From: Candidatus Desulfaltia sp.
GTDB lineage: Bacteria > Desulfobacterota > Desulfobacteria > Desulfobacterales > ETH-SRB1
Direction of reading: 5' to 3'
Assembly: GCA_030656555.1 (NCBI GenBank)
Contig: JAUSPN010000004.1
Span: forward strand, 1-42,330
DNA: 42,330 nt
The translations under genes were made by a program, and so were the position numbers. Under the pieces are notes generated by a model. That model was not told the origin of the DNA and did not search any database. It worked only from the letters and a program-made list of their open reading frames with translations. Position 1 is the first letter of the stretch. Every line of letters starts with the position of its first letter. Positions 23,082 to 42,209 of this stretch are shown here, piece after piece.

Positions 23082-23199
23082 TGGTTTCGTAACCCTCTTA
23101 AAGCACCATCAGCAACCTGTCATAACCGACCAGATATTCACCCTGTCCCTTCTTTCTTTAAAAACAGACATCATGCTGTAGAGGTCATTTCCATTTTGT

Positions 23200-23249
23200 T
23201 TTTTATATCCCTTACCGTTCCAGGACTTGTCAAACATGACCTCTTTGTC
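23200..23249. repeat. Short third copy of the 24.6/27.8 kb repeat
   Basis: About 49 bp, from TTTTATATCCCTTACC to GACCTCTTTGTC, match parts of the repeats at 24630-24680 and 27790-27840 with very few differences. It lies just upstream of the ATPase promoter, so the ATPase gene is bracketed by copies of this sequence. Confidence 0.75.
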
Positions 23250-23263
23250 TTGAGATTTACCCG

Positions 23264-23291
23264 TTGACAACTGCATTAAATATTGTATACT
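23264..23291 (+). promoter_or_regulatory. Promoter of the DUF4143 ATPase gene
   Basis: TTGACA (23264-23269) and TATACT (23286-23291) are separated by 16 bp, a near-consensus housekeeping promoter 30 bp before the start codon. This module has its own promoter rather than reading from priA. Confidence 0.7.
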
Positions 23292-23320
23292 GCACAAAAT
23301 TACGGGAATTTGTGTGATCC

Positions 23321-24571
23321 ATGATAAAAAATGCGCTTATTGGTCAAAAAGCAGAAAGAGACGCTTTCTTAAAAGGCAATTATGTGCCGCGAGAAGGAGT
23401 ACCCTCTGCGAAGGCAGCTCTGGCAAACACCCTTATTAAAGTTATCATGGGGCCGCGAAGAGCCGGGAAGTCAGTTTTTGCCATTCAAATGCTTAAAGGC
23501 GTTGATTTTGCCTATGTGAATTTTGACGATGAACAGCTGGCGGATACAGATGATTTTGATGAGCTTCTCAAGTCTGTTTTAGAAGTATACGGGGAAACAG
23601 ACTATCTCCTTTTTGATGAGATTCAGAATGTCAAAGGCTGGGAGCTTTTCGTGAACAGGTTGCATCGCAGAGGGAAGAATCTAATTGTAACCGGCTCAAA
23701 TTCAAAACTTCTTAGCAGAGAACTTGCCACCCATCTAACCGGTAGATACACACCATTTCAAGTATTACCGTTTTCTTTTCCTGAATTCCTCATTGCCCGG
23801 AACTTCGATCTTGATAACACCCTGGAACTGAAGGAACGGCAGGGGTTGTTGCTCAGGAATCTGAGGGACTATCTCTCAACCGGTGGTTATCCTGAGATTG
23901 TAACCGGAAACCTGGACGGGAAACATTACCTCGCTACCTTGTTCGACAGTATCCTTTTTAAGGACATTGTAAAAAGATACAATGTTCGCTACGCTAAAAA
24001 ACTTTATGATCTTGGCCGCTACCTGATAACCAGTCATTCCTCTCTGTTTTCCTATAACAAGCTGAAAAATTTATTAGAGATCAGGAGTGTACACACCGTT
24101 GAAAATTATCTTGAGTATCTCAAAGAGGCTTATCTGATTTTCAACCTTGACAGATTCTCCGATAAAGCAAAAGAATCGTTGAAAAGTCCCAGAAAAGCCT
24201 ATGCATACGATCTCGGAATAATCAATTCAATAAAGTTCAAGATTTCTCCTGATTTTGGCAGACTTTTGGAAAATCTCGTAGCCATCGAGTTGCTGAGAAA
24301 AGAAGAAGAATTTTATTATTATAAGACCCGTGATGGCAAAGAGGTTGATTTTGCAATAAAAGAAGGCCTGACAATAGCACAGTTGGTCCAGGTCTGTTAT
24401 GAAATTAGCGACAAAAGCACACGAAACAGAGAAATAAACTCTCTCATCAAAGTGGCGGAAGAAACCGGTTGCCATAATCTCATGATCCTGACCTGGGATT
24501 TTGAAGGCAATGAAACCATCAAAGGGGAAAATATTGTTTTTTTGCCAATCTGGAAGTGGCTGCTTCCTTAA
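23321..24571 (+). CDS. AAA ATPase of the AAA_14/DUF4143 family
   Basis: The 416-residue protein has a Walker A GPRRAGKS near residues 43-50, Walker B YLLFDEIQN, sensor-like LIVTGSNSKLLSREL and the typical TGRYTPFQVLPFSFPEF. The C-terminal DUF4143 part ends with YYYKTRDGKEVDFAIKEG, a degenerate nuclease-like motif seen in this family. These ATPases are frequent, mobile accessory genes of unclear role. The ribosome binding site is weak. The last ~80 bp are duplicated at 26891-26970, where they no longer belong to an open gene. Confidence 0.88.
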   Translation: MIKNALIGQKAERDAFLKGNYVPREGVPSAKAALANTLIKVIMGPRRAGKSVFAIQMLKGVDFAYVNFDDEQLADTDDFDELLKSVLEVYGETDYLLFDEIQNVKGWELFVNRLHRRGKNLIVTGSNSKLLSRELATHLTGRYTPFQVLPFSFPEFLIARNFDLDNTLELKERQGLLLRNLRDYLSTGGYPEIVTGNLDGKHYLATLFDSILFKDIVKRYNVRYAKKLYDLGRYLITSHSSLFSYNKLKNLLEIRSVHTVENYLEYLKEAYLIFNLDRFSDKAKESLKSPRKAYAYDLGIINSIKFKISPDFGRLLENLVAIELLRKEEEFYYYKTRDGKEVDFAIKEGLTIAQLVQVCYEISDKSTRNREINSLIKVAEETGCHNLMILTWDFEGNETIKGENIVFLPIWKWLLP

Positions 24572-24839
24572 TTCTAATAGCCCATGCGGAATCTTAGTGT
24601 GATTTTTTTACTATCAATCCCTTTTCACTTTTTATATCCCTTACGGTTCCAGGGCTTGTCAAACATGACCTCTTTGTCATAATGACGCCCGGTATCATCT
24701 TTTTCAATTTTCCCAATTACCTCTGATCGGATTTGAAGAGAAAGATAACACAGATCCCAATGCCACAGATTGCATATAAATATCGCAACTGTCTGTGAAT
24801 AAGACTGAATGTTTGATGCATAGCAGCTATACGTAACAA
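24491..24839. repeat. Repeat R1 (intact copy of the split repeat)
   Basis: This ~349-bp block covers the ATPase 3' end and about 270 bp downstream. Positions 24491-24629 match 26891-27029 with about five differences; 24620-24839 match 27780-27999 with about a dozen. Here the sequence is continuous. On the minus strand it holds a short open frame ending RHYDKEVMFDKPWNRKGYKK and a stop, conserved in both copies, which I do not recognise. Confidence 0.9.
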
Positions 24840-25196
24840 ATGTCTGCGCATTACGGTGGAAGTTGATGTGGTTCTTGTTCGCGGCAATAATATGATGAAG
24901 CGCACTCGGCGCATCTATTCTGGCTTAACGTGGCAGGTGACTTCATTACAACAAGGAAATGAAAAAAGAAACGCCTAAATTCGACCCCATCCCCCTTTGT
25001 CTCTTTATTTTTGTTGACATTAACCTTATGAAGGAATAGAGGTTCAACCTTGAAAATTCCCGCAGGTTCTACCGGTGACGGATGTTCCGTCATTTTTTTC
25101 GGGATAAAAAAAATAAAAACAGCCTGTATTGTCACCATACCAGTTTTTTTGCCGGTGGCATGCAGGCTTTTGTGTCTTCTTAACAGGATAAAAGAT
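24840..25196 (+). promoter_or_regulatory. Leader region of the glycosyltransferase with terminator
   Basis: After a TTGACA box (25014-25019, with only a poor -10) come a small stem AACCT/AGGTT (25046-25068), an intrinsic terminator (25076-25099) and a second long-range stem AGCCTG (25121-25126)/CAGGCT (25163-25168). The glycosyltransferase ATG is at 25197. A terminator inside a leader suggests attenuation or an RNA switch; no known riboswitch consensus was recognised. Upstream, 24840-25000 shows no convincing gene. Confidence 0.4.
25076..25099 (+). terminator. Intrinsic terminator in the glycosyltransferase leader
   Basis: TGACGGA-TGT-TCCGTCA forms a perfect 7-bp stem with a 3-nt loop followed directly by seven T residues. 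Confidence 0.75.
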
Positions 25197-26669
25197 ATGT
25201 CAGTGTCTTTAAATAATGTGCAGGTTTCATCGGTTCTTTCACGTTTTACAGTAATTTTCAGGCAATATTTTAATACTCTCGGTCATGCCGTGCCTGCTAA
25301 AGAGAAACAACTTGATATAATTATTAAAATATTGATCTGTGCGGCTATAGCAGGAATTATTGCGGCAGACATAATATATATGGAACATTTTGGCGAAGTC
25401 CGCGAAGAATTGATGAAAATTTCTTATGGACTTGCTTTTATGCTCTTTGCACTGTTCTTTCTTTCAATAAGCGTACTTGAATTGATATGGAGATCTTATC
25501 TTGTCTGGAAATACAGGCCGGTCTCTCCCTGCTCCCATGATAAACTTCTTTCATGCAGCGTAGTGGTTCCCGCATTCAACGAAGGCAGACAGGTTTACAT
25601 GACCCTTAAAAGCCTTGCCGCAAGCAATTATCCTTCGGGAAAGCTTCAGATTATCGCTGTTGACGACGGAAGCTCTGACGACACGTGGTATTGGATATGC
25701 AAGGCAAAACTGGGGCTTGGAAGGAAAGTCACGGCATTAAAGCTCCCTTGCAATAAAGGGAAAAGGCATGCGCTGTATGCAGGATTTCAGCATAGCAGGG
25801 GCGAGGTTCTTGTTACCGTTGACAGCGATTCGGAAGTGAAACCGGAAACTATTCATAATCTCATAAGCCCGATGGTAAAAAACTTCCGTGTCGGGGCTGT
25901 TTCCGGAAATATCCGTGTATTAAACCATGATAAAGGCATAATTCCAAGGATGCTGGATGTGTTATTCGTCTTCAGTTTCGATTTCATACGCGCAAGCCAG
26001 AGCATGGTAAACATGGTGATGTGCACACCCGGAGCTCTTGCAGCCTACAGGAAGGACGCCATCATGCCGGTTCTTCAGGAATGGTTGAACCAGACCTTTT
26101 TCGGAAAGCCGTCAAATATCGGGGAAGACCGCGCCATAACGAACCTTATCATCAGGGAAGGCTATGATGTTTTATACCAGCGGAATGCAGTGGCATATAC
26201 CAATGTGCCGACAGGATATACGGGCCTCTGCAAGATGTTCCTCCGCTGGGCACGCAGCCATATACGGGAATCCATAGCAATGTCGAGGTTTGCATTTAAA
26301 AAATTCAGAAACGATTCCTTAGCGGGGCTGCGCATAAATCTCATTCTGCACTGGGTAGGGATCATCCTGTCTCCGTTCTTCCTGTTTGCGACGATAGCCT
26401 GCCTTTACTGGCAGCCTCTAGGGTTCGGATTATGTGTCATGGTCGGTATAATAATAACATCAACCGTAACCGGAATAGTATATACGAAACAATGCGGAAA
26501 CTCGGACGCGCTTTTGTCTTATCTGTACGGATTATTTGTCTTTGTAAGCCTCTCATGGATATCGATTTATTCGCTTGCAACCATGCACCACTCAGGCTGG
26601 CTGACCAGAAGCAACAGCATAAAAAAGAGACATCATCAACCATTCTGCATAGATTTTATTTTGACTTAG
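25197..26669 (+). CDS. Membrane family-2 glycosyltransferase (processive, NodC/HasA-like)
   Basis: The 490-residue protein has two N-terminal membrane helices, a cytoplasmic GT-A domain and three C-terminal helices. Catalytic motifs are VVPAFNEG, VDDGSSDDT, the metal-binding VDSDSE, GEDRAIT and RWARS, in place of the usual QxxRW. This order is typical of polysaccharide synthases such as hyaluronan or chitooligosaccharide synthase; the polymer is unknown. Residue 1 is placed at 25197 with AGGAT upstream, because the longer frame to 25050 runs through a terminator and a structured leader. The gene stands alone between two repeat copies, which could allow its deletion by recombination. Confidence 0.85.
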   Translation: MSVSLNNVQVSSVLSRFTVIFRQYFNTLGHAVPAKEKQLDIIIKILICAAIAGIIAADIIYMEHFGEVREELMKISYGLAFMLFALFFLSISVLELIWRSYLVWKYRPVSPCSHDKLLSCSVVVPAFNEGRQVYMTLKSLAASNYPSGKLQIIAVDDGSSDDTWYWICKAKLGLGRKVTALKLPCNKGKRHALYAGFQHSRGEVLVTVDSDSEVKPETIHNLISPMVKNFRVGAVSGNIRVLNHDKGIIPRMLDVLFVFSFDFIRASQSMVNMVMCTPGALAAYRKDAIMPVLQEWLNQTFFGKPSNIGEDRAITNLIIREGYDVLYQRNAVAYTNVPTGYTGLCKMFLRWARSHIRESIAMSRFAFKKFRNDSLAGLRINLILHWVGIILSPFFLFATIACLYWQPLGFGLCVMVGIIITSTVTGIVYTKQCGNSDALLSYLYGLFVFVSLSWISIYSLATMHHSGWLTRSNSIKKRHHQPFCIDFILT

Positions 26670-26773
26670 ATGGATTCGATTCCGGGAAGGAATTTCCGCT
26701 GCAAAGAAGCTCTCGTGTAAATCTGTAATAAAAATTGATTATTATTTGATCAACGGGAGCTGGAGTTTCGCGG

Positions 26774-26892
26774 TCACACTTTATTCCTGTTCCTGTTCTT
26801 TTTATACACACTAAGCCACTCTTCCCTGAATGCCTCAAACCGGTTCTCTTCTACGGCGGCTCTTATATCTTTCATTAGATCCTGGAGGGGAC
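26774..26892 (-). pseudogene. Fragment of the 3' end of tRNA-guanine transglycosylase (tgt)
   Basis: On the minus strand the frame reads DLMKDIRAAVEENRFEAFRE, then EWLSVY, a basic tail and a stop. This resembles the C-terminal helix of bacterial Tgt. The 5' part is missing: at about 26891 the sequence changes abruptly to the ATPase-derived repeat. It appears to be a remnant left at a rearrangement junction. Confidence 0.5.
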
Positions 26893-27029
26893 TTGGGATT
26901 TTGAAGGCAACGAAACCATCAAAGGGGGAAATATTGTTTTTTTGCCAATCTGGAAGTGGCTGCTTCCTTTATTCTAATAGCCCATGCGGAATCTTAGTAT
27001 GATTTTTTTACTATCAATCCCTTTTCACT
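26891..27029. repeat. Repeat R2, left part (duplicated ATPase 3' end)
   Basis: These 139 bp match 24491-24629 with about five substitutions, including the end of the ATPase reading frame and its stop. There is no ATPase gene body in front of it. It ends with CCTTTTCACT, after which a 750-bp insert begins. Confidence 0.9.
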
Positions 27030-27043
27030 AGAAAAAGGACATC

Positions 27044-27071
27044 TTGACATATGCTGGCCTTGGGGTATAAT
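27044..27071 (+). promoter_or_regulatory. Promoter of vapBC
   Basis: TTGACA (27044-27049) and TATAAT (27066-27071) are both perfect consensus boxes with a 16-bp spacer, 33 bp before the vapB start codon. The promoter lies inside the 750-bp insert, so the insert is a self-contained expression unit. Confidence 0.85.
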
Positions 27072-27104
27072 TTAATCAAAAATGTATGCTTATAGGAGAA
27101 TATC

Positions 27105-27323
27105 ATGAGGACTACAATTAACATAAAAGATGACCTTATGGATGCACTCTTGGCCAGCACAAAGGCTAAGACTAAAACTAAAGCCGTTGAATTATCTATC
27201 AGGGAGTATATAGAAAAAAAATCCATTGAAGACCTTATCTCCCTCAGCGGTAAAATCGATATCGATTTAGACTGGCAAAAGGAAGAAGAGGCTGAACTTA
27301 ATGAATACCGGGATCATAGTTGA
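27105..27323 (+). CDS. vapB: VapB-type antitoxin (ribbon-helix-helix)
   Basis: The 72-residue protein starts with a ribbon-helix-helix DNA-binding fold (MRTTINIKDDLMDALLAST) followed by the KAVELSIREYIEKK helix. Its acidic tail (WQKEEEAELNEYRD) would wrap the toxin. It should neutralise VapC and repress the promoter. AGGAG precedes the start. The toxin start codon lies inside the vapB 3' end (23-bp overlap), the usual coupling. Confidence 0.9.
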   Translation: MRTTINIKDDLMDALLASTKAKTKTKAVELSIREYIEKKSIEDLISLSGKIDIDLDWQKEEEAELNEYRDHS

Positions 27324-27693
27324 TACTTGTGTTTGGATTGAGTTTTTCCGCAAGTCAGAATCCAAACTCACACTCCACCTCAAGGCTCTTCTGCGGGAAC
27401 GTAAAGTAATAATGGTCGGTATGGTTATGGCCGAGATATTACAAGGCGTGAAAGCTCCAAAAGAAGCGAAGCTCGTAAAACAAAGCCTGGGAAAACTACC
27501 ATACCTGGAAATTACGCGGGATATATGGGAAGCAGCCGGTGAAATGTCGGCATCCCTCCGGGGCACAGGAATCACAATACCACTCTCCGATCTGATAATT
27601 GCGTGCGTAGCGCTTTCTGGAAACCATGAGATATTAACCATCGATCCACATTTCGAAAAGGTAGATGGACTTAGGCTTCACAATATTCCTTGA
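27301..27693 (+). CDS. vapC: VapC-type PIN-domain ribonuclease toxin
   Basis: The 130-residue protein has all four acidic PIN residues: Asp8 (VDTCVWIEF), Glu45 (MVMAEILQG), Asp97 (IPLSDLIIA) and Asp115 (LTIDPHFEK). VapC toxins cleave tRNAs or rRNA under stress when the antitoxin is degraded. Length is normal and the active site intact, so the module should be functional. Only about 85 bp separate its stop codon from the right end of the insert. Confidence 0.93.
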   Translation: MNTGIIVDTCVWIEFFRKSESKLTLHLKALLRERKVIMVGMVMAEILQGVKAPKEAKLVKQSLGKLPYLEITRDIWEAAGEMSASLRGTGITIPLSDLIIACVALSGNHEILTIDPHFEKVDGLRLHNIP

Positions 27694-27779
27694 TTTTACT
27701 TTAACCGTTCACATCGTCGCAAAAATATTATTAATGGGTCAAACGTAGACTTGACCATTAGCTCTCCAGTTGGCCAAGG

Positions 27780-27999
27780 CCTTTTCACTTTTTATATCCC
27801 TTACGGTTCCAGGACTTGTCAAACATGACCTCTTTGTCATAATGACGCCCGGTATCATCTTTTTCAATTTCCCCAATTACCTCTGATCGGATTTGAAGAG
27901 AAAGATAACACAGATGCCAATGCCGCAAATTACATATAAATATCGCAACTGTCTGTGAATAAGGCTGAATGTTTGATTTATAGCAGTTATATTTAACAA
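27780..27999. repeat. Repeat R2, right part
   Basis: These 220 bp match 24620-24839 with about a dozen substitutions. Homology stops at AACAA, within three bases of the crossover position of the attC-like site that follows. No gene is assigned in 27694-28043 apart from this repeat, the insert end and the attC-like site. Confidence 0.9.
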
Positions 28000-28049
28000 C
28001 GAATTAACCCATTGAGCGAAGCGGAACTGGTTTGAATAACTCGTTATAA
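27991..28049 (-). other. Integron attC-like recombination site (59 bp)
   Basis: Read on the minus strand, the site starts with TTATAAC (R'') and ends with GTTAAAT (R'), which fits the GTTRRRY consensus. Inside, TTCAAACC and GGGTTAA form the L''/L' arms with one unpaired base, as in classical attC sites, around a loop with CCGCTTCGCT. The order strongly resembles the attC sites of antibiotic-resistance cassettes. The stop codon of the minus-strand gene above it (28044-28046) lies inside R'', as is usual for cassette genes. R'' deviates from consensus at two positions. Confidence 0.6.
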
Positions 28050-28397
28050 TAAAGATTGTCCTATCTCACTGGAAACAGCAACCTTTAGTTGATCTTGGGT
28101 TATTTGGTGTTTTTGCAATTGCTTCATTAAAACATCGATAAAAGCAGGAAGTTTATCGGGAGGCACCATGACGGACCCCACACAATCTGCAACAATTTCA
28201 GTTGGCGGCGTTTTAAGTGTAGTAAGGTGGATCTCCGGTTTGAGTTCAAAAAATGAGAGCTTAAAATACCCTTCAATATTCTGAACTACCATATTGCTGG
28301 CGAACCGAGTGATAATAGTTTCTGGTATATTCCATCTAATGAGCATGGGTTCTTCTTGAGCAGTTTCTTTTATTAGTGCTTTTTTTCTCTTAGCCAT
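28044..28397 (-). CDS. Small protein, possibly DUF3467-like
   Basis: The 117-residue protein starts with a basic segment, then RWNIPETIITRFASNMVVQN and ends with a helix after VGSVMVPPDKLPAFIDVLMK. The layout (a beta-rich middle, then a helix after a PPD/SPE turn) resembles DUF3467, a small domain of unknown function. The assignment is tentative. It has a GGAGG ribosome binding site. It is the third gene of a run with the XRE regulator and the HigB-like protein, and its stop codon lies in the attC-like site. Confidence 0.6.
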   Translation of the reverse strand: MAKRKKALIKETAQEEPMLIRWNIPETIITRFASNMVVQNIEGYFKLSFFELKPEIHLTTLKTPPTEIVADCVGSVMVPPDKLPAFIDVLMKQLQKHQITQDQLKVAVSSEIGQSLL

Positions 28398-28440
28398 AAA
28401 TCCTCCAAATATTCTTAGAATTTTATATCAAATATATCAA

Positions 28441-28932
28441 TTATGTGGCGAGTGCGATATAAGGAGGATAACGTACAGGTGAAGCTATTTCAGCTTTCCC
28501 CGATGTTAAAGTCCTGATAACCTCGTTAGCTGCTGCTGTCAAAATGTTTATATTTTTCTGTACATTTGAAGATGTACTTACTATTTCTTGAAAAGCCCAA
28601 AAGTCACGCGGCTTGCCAGATTTTTCCCAGCAAATACTAAACACCTCCGAATTAATAGGCCCGTTTTCATTATTTGGGTCATTATCTTCATACGCTACAA
28701 TTGACACTTTTAGCCCAAGCGTTCTTGCACATTTAACGATTTTGCTAAGAGTAATATTACCAGGATTGTTGAGTATCTGAGAAACCCGCCCCTTTGTTAC
28801 ATTTAATCTTTGAGCAAGTTCATCTTGAGACATTGGTAGCGATTCCATCTTATCCTCTAATTGAGTAATGAAATCCGCAGCAATCCTGAAAAGAAAATCT
28901 TCGTTGCTTCGCTCTGTCCAGTGAGGCGTCAT
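28441..28932 (-). CDS. XRE-family regulator, likely antitoxin (HigA-like)
   Basis: The 163-residue protein has a helix-turn-helix at residues 35-56 (SQDELAQRLNVTKGRVSQIL) followed by a longer C-terminal region without a recognised domain. Its start overlaps the stop of the upstream toxin-like gene by 4 bp. Toxin-first order with an XRE protein second is the HigBA arrangement. It probably binds the 18-bp palindrome overlapping the promoter of the module. The C-terminal half may bind the toxin or a third component. Confidence 0.75.
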   Translation of the reverse strand: MTPHWTERSNEDFLFRIAADFITQLEDKMESLPMSQDELAQRLNVTKGRVSQILNNPGNITLSKIVKCARTLGLKVSIVAYEDNDPNNENGPINSEVFSICWEKSGKPRDFWAFQEIVSTSSNVQKNINILTAAANEVIRTLTSGKAEIASPVRYPPYIALAT

Positions 28933-29372
28933 AGATTCCTCCCAAAATAATCAGTTATAGCTCGCCAAACGGCTACTGTCGTTCTAAGTGTTTCTACTTG
29001 TTTTAAATCTGCCTCATCTGTTTTATGTTCCTTTTTAAATGCATAGCGAACTAATATACAAACTTGATAACTATTATTAGACGGTTTAGGATTGCATAAG
29101 AAACCATAAAACCGATGAGACTTAGCTTTAAAAACAAAACATTTGGTGTATCGCCCGTGAAATTCTGATTTATTCCAACCGTGATAACGCGAAGGTTTGC
29201 CGAGCTGGTTGTCTATCCACGCATCAAATCTCGTCCTCAACAAACTATCAATATTTCCTTTTAAATTATCAAAAATAGGCTTAGCCGCCACTTTCTTATC
29301 TCCAGAAATTAAAAAACAAACCCCTCGTCTTTGATGATGCTCTCCAGCAATAAATTCGATTCGATATGTCAT
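28929..29372 (-). CDS. HigB/Gp49-like putative toxin
   Basis: The 147-residue protein has SHRFYGFLCNP followed by YQVCILVRYAFKKEHKTDEA, which mirrors the central strands and the FxKKTxKT segment of HigB/Gp49-type toxins of the RelE fold. The N-terminal ~60 residues are atypical for that family, and length is greater than the usual 90-120. It is the first gene of a three-gene run with the XRE regulator, with ATGA coupling. The toxin role is inferred from the partial motif match and gene order. Confidence 0.5.
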   Translation of the reverse strand: MTYRIEFIAGEHHQRRGVCFLISGDKKVAAKPIFDNLKGNIDSLLRTRFDAWIDNQLGKPSRYHGWNKSEFHGRYTKCFVFKAKSHRFYGFLCNPKPSNNSYQVCILVRYAFKKEHKTDEADLKQVETLRTTVAVWRAITDYFGRNL

Positions 29373-29387
29373 TCACAGTTCCAAATG

Positions 29388-29416
29388 TAGTTTAGCTATA
29401 ACTAAACATATTGTCA
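29388..29416 (-). promoter_or_regulatory. Promoter and overlapping operator of the HigBA-like module
   Basis: On the minus strand TTGACA (29416-29411) and TAAACT (29393-29388) are 17 bp apart. An 18-bp palindrome, GTTTAG-TTATAG-CTAAAC (29389-29406), with one mismatched pair, overlaps the -10 box. It is a good site for autorepression by the XRE protein. Confidence 0.7.
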
Positions 29417-29597
29417 AGAGAATACTATGGCAGTTCTTAAGACTGGATATGATTAAGGGAACATACTCAATCAAAAGACTCTCCTCATGTATCATACGGG
29501 CAGACATCATCAGAAAACAGGGGACGATCTTCAGTTTATAAGTTTGTATCGTCAAAAATAGAACAATATTTCCGTTTCAGCTTCATGCCTGTAAAGT

Positions 29598-29646
29598 AAA
29601 AAGCCCCATCCTTCATATTTATGAAGAAACGGGGCTTTATTATTTT
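29598..29646. terminator. Bidirectional intrinsic terminator
   Basis: AAAGCCCC and GGGGCTTT form an outer stem, with CTTCAT-ATTT-ATGAAG as inner stem, flanked by A-rich and T-rich runs. It lies between the HigBA-like promoter and the MBL hydrolase gene. The rest of the 29373-29898 gap shows no gene; a 14-mer CATATGCAAGTCAA near 29733 recurs near 41925. Confidence 0.75.
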
Positions 29647-29898
29647 ACAATCCAATGGTTAGTCACCTGATCCTCCTGTTTGAGGTTCAAAAAACAGACC
29701 GAAATTAATATAAAACAATATAGATTAATTGCATATGCAAGTCAATTTATTATCTTTTTCGGGATTAAATGCTTGCGAGAGACCGTCTGAAGGGCTGGAG
29801 TAAAGCGGAGATTCAGTTCCAGCGGGGCGGCTGGGAATCTTCAAATATAACGGCGTGGGGAAAAAACTGTTTTGCTTCGGGCAGATTATTACGTAAAA

Positions 29899-30745: not shown

Positions 30746-33022
30746 TTAAATGCTTTCCTTATACCCGCATTCCTTGTCCATGCATGAGTGAAAAGTGCCT
30801 GCCCTTTTAGTAGTTTTTTCGACAAGAAACTTAGCTTTGCACTCGGGACATTCTTTTGCTACCGGCTTATCCCAGCTGGCAAATGTACATTCAGGATAAC
30901 GGCTGCATCCATAGAAGATTTTTCCGCGCCTTGACTTTCTTTCAACAATATCACCGGAACAGCCGTTTTCAGGACATTTTACACCGGTAGCCTGTACTGC
31001 ATGATTTGAATTTATTGATTTGGTGCTTTTGCATTCCGGGTATCCGCTGCAGGCAAGAAACGGACCGTATTGTCCCTGTTTAATGATCATGGGTTTACCG
31101 CATTTTTCACAAATTTTGTCTGTAGCCTCTTCTTTGGGCAGTTCAATCGGCTGTATTTTCCCTGTTTCATCCCTTGTGTAGTTTGTTGAATGTTTACATT
31201 CCGGATATCCGCTGCACGCAAGATATTGTCCGTTTTTGCCCACCTTGACATGCAATTGCCTGTTACATTCGGGACAGGTTAAATCTGCCGGGAAACCAAC
31301 GCCCCTCATATTGAGCATTGATTCTGATGCTGCGTCCAGATTTTTTTTGAAAGAGTCGTAAAAACGTTTAAGCACTTCTAAATAATCGGCCTCTGCGTCT
31401 TCAATACTGTCTAAACTATTTTCCATTCTGGCGGTAAAATCAACGCCAAATAGATCAGAAAAGCTTTCCACCAGAAGGTCGTTTACAATGAACCCGAGTT
31501 CATTTGGTATGAAATAACCTTTGACAAAATCCACATATCCTTTTTGTCTGATTATCGATAATATTGCGGCATAGGTGCTGGGACGTCCTATCCCGTTTTC
31601 TTCAAGTTCTTTGACCAGAGATGCTTCTGAAAATCTTGGAGGCGGTAATGTAAAATGCTGCTTTGGCTCCAATTTGTCGAGCTTTAATACCATGCCTTCA
31701 GAAAGTTCCGGAAGATCATCTGCTTTTCCTTCCCTTTCATCTGCCTCGTCAACAGACATATAAAGGGTCATAAAGCCCGGAAATTTAATGGTTGATCCGC
31801 TTGCGGTAAACAAACAGGAACCGGCACTTATAGATATCAGGCTGGTGTCAATAATAGCCTGTTGCATCTGTGATGCAACAAACCGTTTCCATATAAGGGT
31901 GTATAGAGACAGCTGGTCTTTGGAAAGATAACCGGCAATTTTTTCAGGTGTATTAAAAACCGATGTGGGTCGTATGGCCTCATGGGCGTCCTGAGCCTTT
32001 TTGCGGTTTTTGAAAAACCTCGGCTTTTCAAGAGCATATTGTTTGCCAAAACGCTCCCTGATCAGCGAAAGGGCTTCTTCGGCTGCCTCTTTTGACATCC
32101 TGGTTGAATCTGTACGCATGTATGTGATAAGCCCCTCTGGTTTTCCCGGCCCCAGATCTATGCCTTCATAGAGCTGCTGTGCTATAGTCATAGTTTTTTT
32201 GGCGGAAAATCTCAGTTTTCTGATGGACTCCTGCTGCAACTTGCTTGTGATAAAAGGGGGAAGGGGATTTCTTTTTGTGGTTTTATTTTGAACTTTTTCC
32301 ACTATAAAACTGCTGTCTGATATCTCATTAAGGATAGCGGTTGAAGTCTTTTCATCCGGAATGCTGATCTTTTTTCCGTCTTTTTTCGCAAGTTTTGCGG
32401 TAAATGGGGGGGGGCTGCTGCTCTCCAGATAAGCTGTTATCGACCAGTATTCTTTTGAATCAAAGGCATAAATGGCGCGCTCCCTTTCGCAGATTATACG
32501 CACTGCCACAGATTGCACCCTTCCTGCGCTCAGCCCGCCTTTGACCTTGCGCCACAGCAATGGCGAAACCTGATATCCCACCAGCCTGTCAAGTATTCTG
32601 CGTGCCTGTTGAGCCTCATATTTTTTCTTGTTGAGATTTTCAGGAGCGCCGATTGCCGTATTAATGGCATTTTTTGTGAGTTCATGAAACAATACCCTGT
32701 AAAACTTTCTGCCCTGTTTTTTTAGAATTTCTGCAGTATGGTATGCGATCGCTTCACCCTCCCTGTCAGGGTCGGGCGCAAGATATATTTCTGAAGCATC
32801 TCCGGCAGCCTTTTTTAAAGAAGATATAACCTTTTTCTTGCCCGGAATTATTATGTATTTTGGCTTAAAATCTTTTTCAATATCTATCCCTATTTCATTC
32901 GCGGGAAGATCCTTGATATGGCCGACGGTTGCAACCACATTATAGTTATCGCCAAGATATTTTTTTATGGTTTTTACTTTTGTTGGGGATTCAACTACGA
33001 TAAGCGGTTTAGTCACTATCAT
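30746..33022 (-). CDS. topA: DNA topoisomerase I
   Basis: The 758-residue type IA topoisomerase relaxes negative supercoils. It begins with the Toprim domain (LIVVESPTKVKTIKKYLG, APDPDREGEAIAYH), followed by the catalytic core with active-site Tyr301 in GLITYMRTDSTRMS. The C-terminus has four zinc-ribbon repeats (CPEC...CSGYPEC, CEKC...CSGYPEC, CPENGC...CSRYPEC, CPEC...C). An AGGA element precedes the ATG. A heptamer repeat array lies directly upstream between topA and dprA. Confidence 0.97.
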   Translation of the reverse strand: MIVTKPLIVVESPTKVKTIKKYLGDNYNVVATVGHIKDLPANEIGIDIEKDFKPKYIIIPGKKKVISSLKKAAGDASEIYLAPDPDREGEAIAYHTAEILKKQGRKFYRVLFHELTKNAINTAIGAPENLNKKKYEAQQARRILDRLVGYQVSPLLWRKVKGGLSAGRVQSVAVRIICERERAIYAFDSKEYWSITAYLESSSPPPFTAKLAKKDGKKISIPDEKTSTAILNEISDSSFIVEKVQNKTTKRNPLPPFITSKLQQESIRKLRFSAKKTMTIAQQLYEGIDLGPGKPEGLITYMRTDSTRMSKEAAEEALSLIRERFGKQYALEKPRFFKNRKKAQDAHEAIRPTSVFNTPEKIAGYLSKDQLSLYTLIWKRFVASQMQQAIIDTSLISISAGSCLFTASGSTIKFPGFMTLYMSVDEADEREGKADDLPELSEGMVLKLDKLEPKQHFTLPPPRFSEASLVKELEENGIGRPSTYAAILSIIRQKGYVDFVKGYFIPNELGFIVNDLLVESFSDLFGVDFTARMENSLDSIEDAEADYLEVLKRFYDSFKKNLDAASESMLNMRGVGFPADLTCPECNRQLHVKVGKNGQYLACSGYPECKHSTNYTRDETGKIQPIELPKEEATDKICEKCGKPMIIKQGQYGPFLACSGYPECKSTKSINSNHAVQATGVKCPENGCSGDIVERKSRRGKIFYGCSRYPECTFASWDKPVAKECPECKAKFLVEKTTKRAGTFHSCMDKECGYKESI

Positions 33023-33336
33023 TCCTTTCCTAACAGTTCACAGTTCACAGTTCACAGTTCACAGTTTACGGTTCACAGTTTACGGTTCACAGTTCACGGT
33101 TTACAGTTCACGGTTTACGGTTCACGGTTCACGGTTCACGGTTCACGGTTTTTTAAATGAATTTTGTAATGATTGAAACATGTTTGATATTTATCTTAAT
33201 TCTTAATTTTTTTCAGAAAATACCTTTGTCGATTGTCGATTATTTTTTTACAATCATCAATTCTTTGAGCCTCTTGCTTTTATGTTTTGAACAACCGTTA
33301 ACTGTAAACCGTGAACCGTGAACGGTTACTCCTTTC
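33023..33336. repeat. Heptamer tandem array and inverted partner
   Basis: Sixteen consecutive heptamers of the form GTTCACA, GTTCACG, GTTTACG or GTTTACA run without any register break from 33036 to 33147. A shorter complementary array (CTGTAAA, CCGTGAA, CCGTGAA, CGGTTA) lies at about 33294-33328. The stretch between is AT-rich without a gene. The two arms could form a long hairpin in the topA-dprA gap. Confidence 0.9.
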
Positions 33337-41984: not shown

Positions 41985-42131
41985 CTAATGCCTTTTCGTT
42001 TTATTTGCCTTTTTTCTATCCAAAGCATGAGTATATATCACAGTAGTGTCGACATCTTTATGGCACAGAAGCTCCTGCATCATCCGAATATCATAAACAT
42101 CCTCCAAGAAGTGGGTTGCAAATGAGCATTT
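41985..42131 (-). pseudogene. C-terminal remnant of a tyrosine recombinase (integrase)
   Basis: The minus-strand frame reads [20 protein letters not shown] then [19 protein letters not shown] and a stop. This is the end of a phage/integron-type integrase, with the nucleophile Tyr in IYTH present. The usual GHxD is CHKD, and an in-frame stop lies before the remnant, so the N-terminal and core parts are lost. Confidence 0.8.
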
Positions 42132-42209
42132 TTATATTCCTTTTCTAATGCATTAGTCATTCTGTGCTTCTTTTAATTCTTTGATATAAAATTTTGGCTC
42201 TTTCTCATT

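Follow-up and report, generated by a model that had tools for sequence, protein, structure and literature searches.

Chromosomal integrons of the Vibrio type hold toxin-antitoxin cassettes that carry their own promoters. The integron integrase needs little beyond GNT in its target, extended to GTTRRRY, and acts off-target (PMC10127599); cassettes at secondary sites, such as aadB in RSF1010 and those of Escherichia coli attG libraries, are cited in two reports (PMC10127599, PMC12444791), the second of which deals with attG sites (PMC12444791). In attC sites, strand choice is determined by an extrahelical base, most sites have a G after the AAC of the bottom strand, and inverted extrahelical bases shift recombination to R'' (PMC2727003). 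Clusters with a single attC are excluded by default in integron searches, which limits false positives, yet such clusters may be true (PMC9024848).

In this study, we analyzed an attC-like site at the end of three adjacent genes in a window of 42,330 nucleotides (the whole stretch of DNA examined here), which is contig C73 of a 2.73-Mb genome in 107 contigs. Considering the integrases and attCs of this genome, the point at which a repeat (R2) breaks off beside the site and a second junction of the same kind on contig C17, the most likely reading of the trio is that of an orphan cassette with a single attC, joined to the repeat by an integrase. Accordingly, we regard it as a probable orphan integron gene cassette with one attC, no integrase alongside and a 3' end formed by a real but weakened attC; that the segment 27991-28049 is an attC appears equally probable. 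The features of the locus are listed in Table 1.

Table 1. Features of the trio, its attC-like site and the neighboring repeats (positions in the window; a slash within a sequence or between two positions marks the crossover or boundary)
Feature	Position	Strand	Basis or remark
attC-like site, whole	27991..28049	-	top match of two attC covariance models in window, correct strand
R' box GTTAAAT	27991..27997	-	sequence; predicted crossover 27997/27996 (G27997/T27996)
L' arm GGGTTAA	28004..28010	-	sequence
L'' arm TTCAAACC, extrahelical C	28029..28036	-	sequence
R'' box TTATAAC, holds stop codon of third gene	28043..28049	-	sequence
Third gene, 117 aa; DUF3467-like, judged from its position and a weak similarity (24% to a DUF3467 protein)	28044..28397	-	no own Pfam match; alignment
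HTH protein, 163 aa, HigA/HipB-type antitoxin-like	28441..28932	-	HTH_3 E 1.7e-9; HipB chains in PDB
Putative toxin, 147 aa; 4-bp overlap with HTH gene	28929..29372	-	conserved in G113 (50%) and G400 (40%)
Promoter: TTGACA -35 (29417-29412), 17-nt spacer, TAAACT -10	29389..29417	-	sequence
Palindrome GTTTAGTTATAGCTAAAC (GTTTA..TAAAC) within promoter	29390-29407	-	sequence
Best candidate cassette 5' end, G/TTCCCT (29462/29461)	29459..29462	-	inferred from repeat end at about 29521 and conserved promoter; unproven
Dispersed repeat D upstream of trio	29521..29786	-	repeat searches
Repeat R2	27780..27999	+	homology to R1 stops at attC crossover
Repeat R1, unoccupied version	24620..24920	+	minus strand ...GACATTTG/TTACGT..., runs on where R2 stops

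Read on the minus strand from 28049 to 27991, the site consists of TTATAAC, GAGTTA, TTCAAACC, 18 nt, GGGTTAA, TTCGTT and GTTAAAT, and its elements follow each other as in an attC: R'', L'' with one extrahelical base, loop, L' and R'. The original prediction had described these boxes, arms, the extrahelical base and their order accurately, as the minus-strand sequence confirms, and had omitted an A-G mismatch in the L stem and a T before GTT. R' agrees with GTTRRRY at 7/7 positions and R'' with RYYYAAC at 5/7 with the AAC intact; the same TTATAAC 7-mer also serves as R'' in a genuine array attC (L100:4685). The L arms pair as TT[C]AA-A-CC / GG-G-TTAA, with the single A-G mismatch counting against the cassette reading, and reach a forward score of 5.5 (5.5-7.0 for most array sites), and the extrahelical C lies on the 5' arm, as in classical attCs. 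Both R-L spacers are 5 nt long, as in array sites and inside a range of about 4-8 nt. The base that precedes GTT is T (27998), a position occupied by C in at least 90% of 29 array sites, and this too counts against the cassette reading. The third gene ends at the site in the same orientation, and its stop codon TAA (28046-28044) lies inside R'', as had been predicted. The hairpin energy of the site is ordinary in comparison with shuffled sequences (z about -0.4).

A home-made scan for R boxes plus L pairing proved unspecific (six matches in the window at or above the same score) and was dropped; covariance models were therefore built. The first was based on 29 aligned sites from arrays beside integron integrases of the same phylum and the second on 44 sites. 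In this check, which had been proposed for the site and for which we used our own models, the site was the best match of the window with both, at 11.9 bits (E 1.5, filters off) and 12.2 bits (E 0.97), that is, at an E-value of about 1. The best match in 58 kb of control DNA from the same genome was a 26-bp fragment of 11.8 bits without the full structure. Scores of 11.9-12.2 bits are far below those of the confident attCs of this genome (23-47 bits) and would not be significant genome-wide, so that the sequence by itself makes attC identity suggestive or borderline, not significant. Requiring a position on a co-oriented stop codon brings the chance expectation to roughly 1% for the window, and a homology break within 3 bp contributes about another 2%, both values being rough, post hoc estimates.

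The host genome contains many integron parts. Four full-length integron integrases, located on C25, C43, C78 and C23, scored above the NCBIfam integron-integrase cut-off in a profile search, and the covariance models detected about 12 confident attCs (23-47 bits). C25 carries a proper cassette array with attCs at 27300-27388 and 28602-28673, and further attCs were found on C14, C26, C38, C53, C70, C72 and C98. The cassette cargo of the genome includes an acetyltransferase, a ThsB-like protein with a TIR domain and a DUF5334 protein; the latter two occur together in the C25 array (L012:16700-18700) and are possibly phage-defence cargo. With four integrases, the C25 array and the further attCs in the same genome, a trio cassette outside an array is plausible. 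On C73 itself, neither a full intI nor a second attC was found, which counts against the cassette reading, and no intI with attI adjoins the trio as in a complete integron. The nearest integrase trace on this contig is found at the window's right end (42006-42182), where a fragment of a broken tyrosine recombinase gene contains two in-frame stops.

Some additional observations were made in this genome. Contigs C78, C23 and C26 (L016:1-144, L017:1-143 and L112/L169:1-143) begin with an identical 139 bp that has one attC at its end. Relative to the adjoining genes, this attC has its extrahelical base on the opposite arm, and the three contigs part exactly at the AAC of R'' (preceding letters GCAT, CCCC and GCCG). 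It may represent a natural case of inverted extrahelical bases, and, judging from the contig ends, the assembly may be knotted at a repeated element. In the window, a 7-bp unit (ACAGTTC/ACGGTTC) occurs in runs of both orientations next to topA (33019-33165 and 33286-33326). An Rfam search and a tRNA scan of the window gave no matches.

The junction on the 3' side of the trio is defined by repeat R. R1 (24620-24839) and R2 (27780-27999) are identical at 208/220 positions (95%), and the homology ends at 27999; beyond this point, the C80 and C85 copies continue in the same manner as R1. The break is thus at most 3 bp from the crossover predicted between 27997 and 27996, in agreement with the original prediction. 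R2 also carries an insertion with a vapBC pair: a 750-bp segment (27030-27779) with a vapBC toxin-antitoxin pair (27105-27693) is flanked by 10-bp direct repeats CCTTTTCACT (27020-27029 and 27780-27789), R1 representing the empty site.

A second, independent case was found on C17, and its junction is the strongest support for an integrase reaction. On the minus strand, a copy of repeat D is followed by an attI-like sequence of 51 bp, of which the C23 integrase has an identical copy alongside. Next come an N-formylglutamate amidohydrolase gene, an unambiguous attC (TTCCAACAACAAGCTGAACCGG...CCGGTTAGCCTGGG/TTACAG) and the R flank, which is joined exactly at the G/TT left unoccupied in R1 (GACATTTG/TTACGT). 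As this second R copy meets a different attC at the same base, R was probably a repeatedly used target. A possible third case of R broken beside an attC is the copy at C85:54975, whose break falls almost on the same base; a weaker attC-like match, preceded by an IrrE-domain/DUF4411 gene pair, lies about 1 kb upstream of it. The wider reading, in which R is a dispersed landing or deletion target used again and again by the integrases of the cell, with the C73 and C17 copies (perhaps also C85:54975) broken at the same G/TT or G/AT beside an attC-ended gene, is offered tentatively. Whole or partial copies of the C23 attI-like sequence (GAACAGTTTTTTAAACCGGTATATTAAAGATTACGTATATTAATTG) are present at L168:3532-3582 (C17) and at about 1358-1403 and 2850-2876 of L169 (C26); they end at G/TT before a cassette-like gene with no integrase gene found adjoining, and repeat D precedes the copy on C17 and one of those on C26.

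It is against these junctions that a chance resemblance has to be weighed. An ordinary imperfect palindrome at an operon end might resemble an attC, with R2 ending there for some other reason, and a model E-value of about 1 for 42 kb, a folding energy no better than that of shuffles and 12.2 bits, far under the confident attCs of the genome, would all suit such a site. We consider this unlikely, because the site is the best match and has the correct strand, because it coincides with a stop codon and with a breakpoint of homology, because an unambiguous attC adjoins the C17 copy of R at the same base, and because integron parts are abundant in this genome.

The upstream side of the trio is less clear. 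Between 29844 and 29521 lie dispersed repeats that are present many times in this genome, and host DNA begins at 29845. Copies of repeat D elsewhere also adjoin attI-like sites or cassettes (C17 and C26) and lie near intI in C25. The 5' end of the cassette must therefore fall between about 29520 and the -35 box at 29417. In this interval, the G/TT boundary candidates are weak (29462 and 29519), and outside the promoter no G/TTRRRY boundary with complementarity to R'' was found, which counts against the cassette reading. Two other starts were rejected: G/TTATAG at about 29403, complementary to R'', because the homologues in genomes G113 and G400 also have the -35 box that precedes it, and G/TTATAT at 29850, because 29844 is a dispersed-repeat edge and the DNA beyond is host DNA that is also present in the same-genus genome G012. 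The remaining half of R2 was sought upstream of the trio and not found, which also counts against the cassette reading; the two halves of an empty target therefore do not flank the trio as after an attG insertion, with one R half at 27996 and the other absent upstream.

The missing half fits either an attC x R deletion made by the integrase or a later replacement of the 5' side. It has also been suggested that the module arrived as an integron cassette, possibly at a secondary site; the weak attC, the intact-looking integrons of the genome, the junction at the crossover and the C17 case speak for this, and the lack of an R half upstream speaks against a clean insertion at a secondary site, which should have left that half in place. 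The secondary-site step is plausible and rests on one junction. The host IntI would bind the folded bottom strand of the trio attC and cut at G/TT, and the cut attC would be joined to the G/TTA target in an R copy, so that R2 would stop at the crossover. With the rest of R2 absent upstream, the probable course is either an attC x secondary-site deletion, in which the DNA separating an array from R would have been lost, or an insertion followed by replacement of its 5' side with dispersed repeats. Even less likely than chance resemblance is a real attC relic whose junction arose by deletion, segmental duplication or transposition among the dispersed repeats of 23085-29844: the absent half of R2, the repeat patchwork of the neighborhood with its vapBC insertion and 10-bp direct repeat, and the right edge at a dispersed-repeat edge (29844) are in its favor, but the breakpoint lies at most 3 bp from the crossover in R2 and coincides with it in C17.

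The original prediction had called the module HigBA-like. The HTH protein resembles HigA/HipB at weak scores (HTH_3 above the cut-off; HigA model 26.5 bits versus a cut-off of 47.7), and the putative toxin has no Pfam, NCBIfam or PDB family match and an AlphaFold model of low confidence (pLDDT 45). The label DUF3467-like for the third gene is supported indirectly, by a G113 counterpart that is a DUF3467 protein (PF11950, E 4e-13). The layout of promoter and palindrome is repeated upstream of the G113 and G400 homologues. A conserved promoter of its own and a palindromic operator make expression and autoregulation of the trio possible without an integron promoter, and its products would act as a toxin-antitoxin pair accompanied by a small accessory protein.

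The trio is present in 3/395 genomes of the phylum and absent from 16 genomes of the family, a distribution that favors the cassette reading. Relatives of the putative toxin were detected in the 395 phylum genomes only in G113 (50%) and G400 (40%), where the toxin gene is always followed by the HTH gene (62-68% identity, 116-121 residues) and then by a small third gene, which varies: DUF3467 in G113 and a different small protein in G400. No attC was found at the 3' end of the G113 and G400 trios, which counts against the cassette reading, and the proposed search for the same cassette in integron arrays of other genomes found it in no array, nor was it found in plasmids, viral contigs or GTDB contigs. 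The G400 trio (L025:3463-5290) is bracketed by imperfect inverted repeats of 17 bp, GGCAGTGTCCCAATTTG / CAAATTAGGACACTGCC, in the manner of a small transposable unit; the module may thus travel by different vehicles.

The surrounding locus is itself variable. In comparison with G012 (L050), the window has an extra 6.8 kb (23085-29844) with ATATAAYGG at both edges; in G012 this segment is missing and the flanking HAD-type and metallo-beta-lactamase-fold genes are directly adjacent, which likewise favors the cassette reading. ATATAATGG joins both sides in G012 (L050 2430-2450), and ATATAATGG and ATATAACGG flank 23085-29844 in the window. Other members of the genus carry different DNA at this position, from which the variability of the locus follows.

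The trio offers a natural case, in an integron-rich genome, of a toxin-antitoxin-like cassette outside any array on its own promoter, and it suggests that one genomic repeat is a recurring target of integrases. Such a case would illustrate the way in which cassettes escape from arrays and become established in chromosomes, outside the setting of antibiotic resistance; if R is indeed such a target, cassettes would have moved from arrays into a multi-copy repeat or have been fused to it. Among known systems, HigBA/HipBA type II modules share with the trio a short toxin-like gene followed by an overlapping HTH_3 gene and a palindromic operator; in contrast to them, its putative toxin matches no Pfam, NCBIfam or PDB family and an extra DUF3467-like gene is present. 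It resembles the toxin-antitoxin cassettes of Vibrio-type integrons in having toxin-antitoxin-like genes and its own promoter in a cassette, and differs from them in its location outside an array, its three genes and its unrecognised toxin family. As a cassette with an attC and no neighboring intI, it resembles the CALIN class of IntegronFinder (attC without integrase), whose default reporting needs two or more attCs, whereas the trio has one, with a low score and no defined 5' end. With cassettes at secondary (attG) sites it shares an attC joined to a G/TT sequence that is neither attI nor attC; unlike them, it lacks the upstream half of the target, and that target is a multi-copy genomic repeat that has seemingly been used at least two times.
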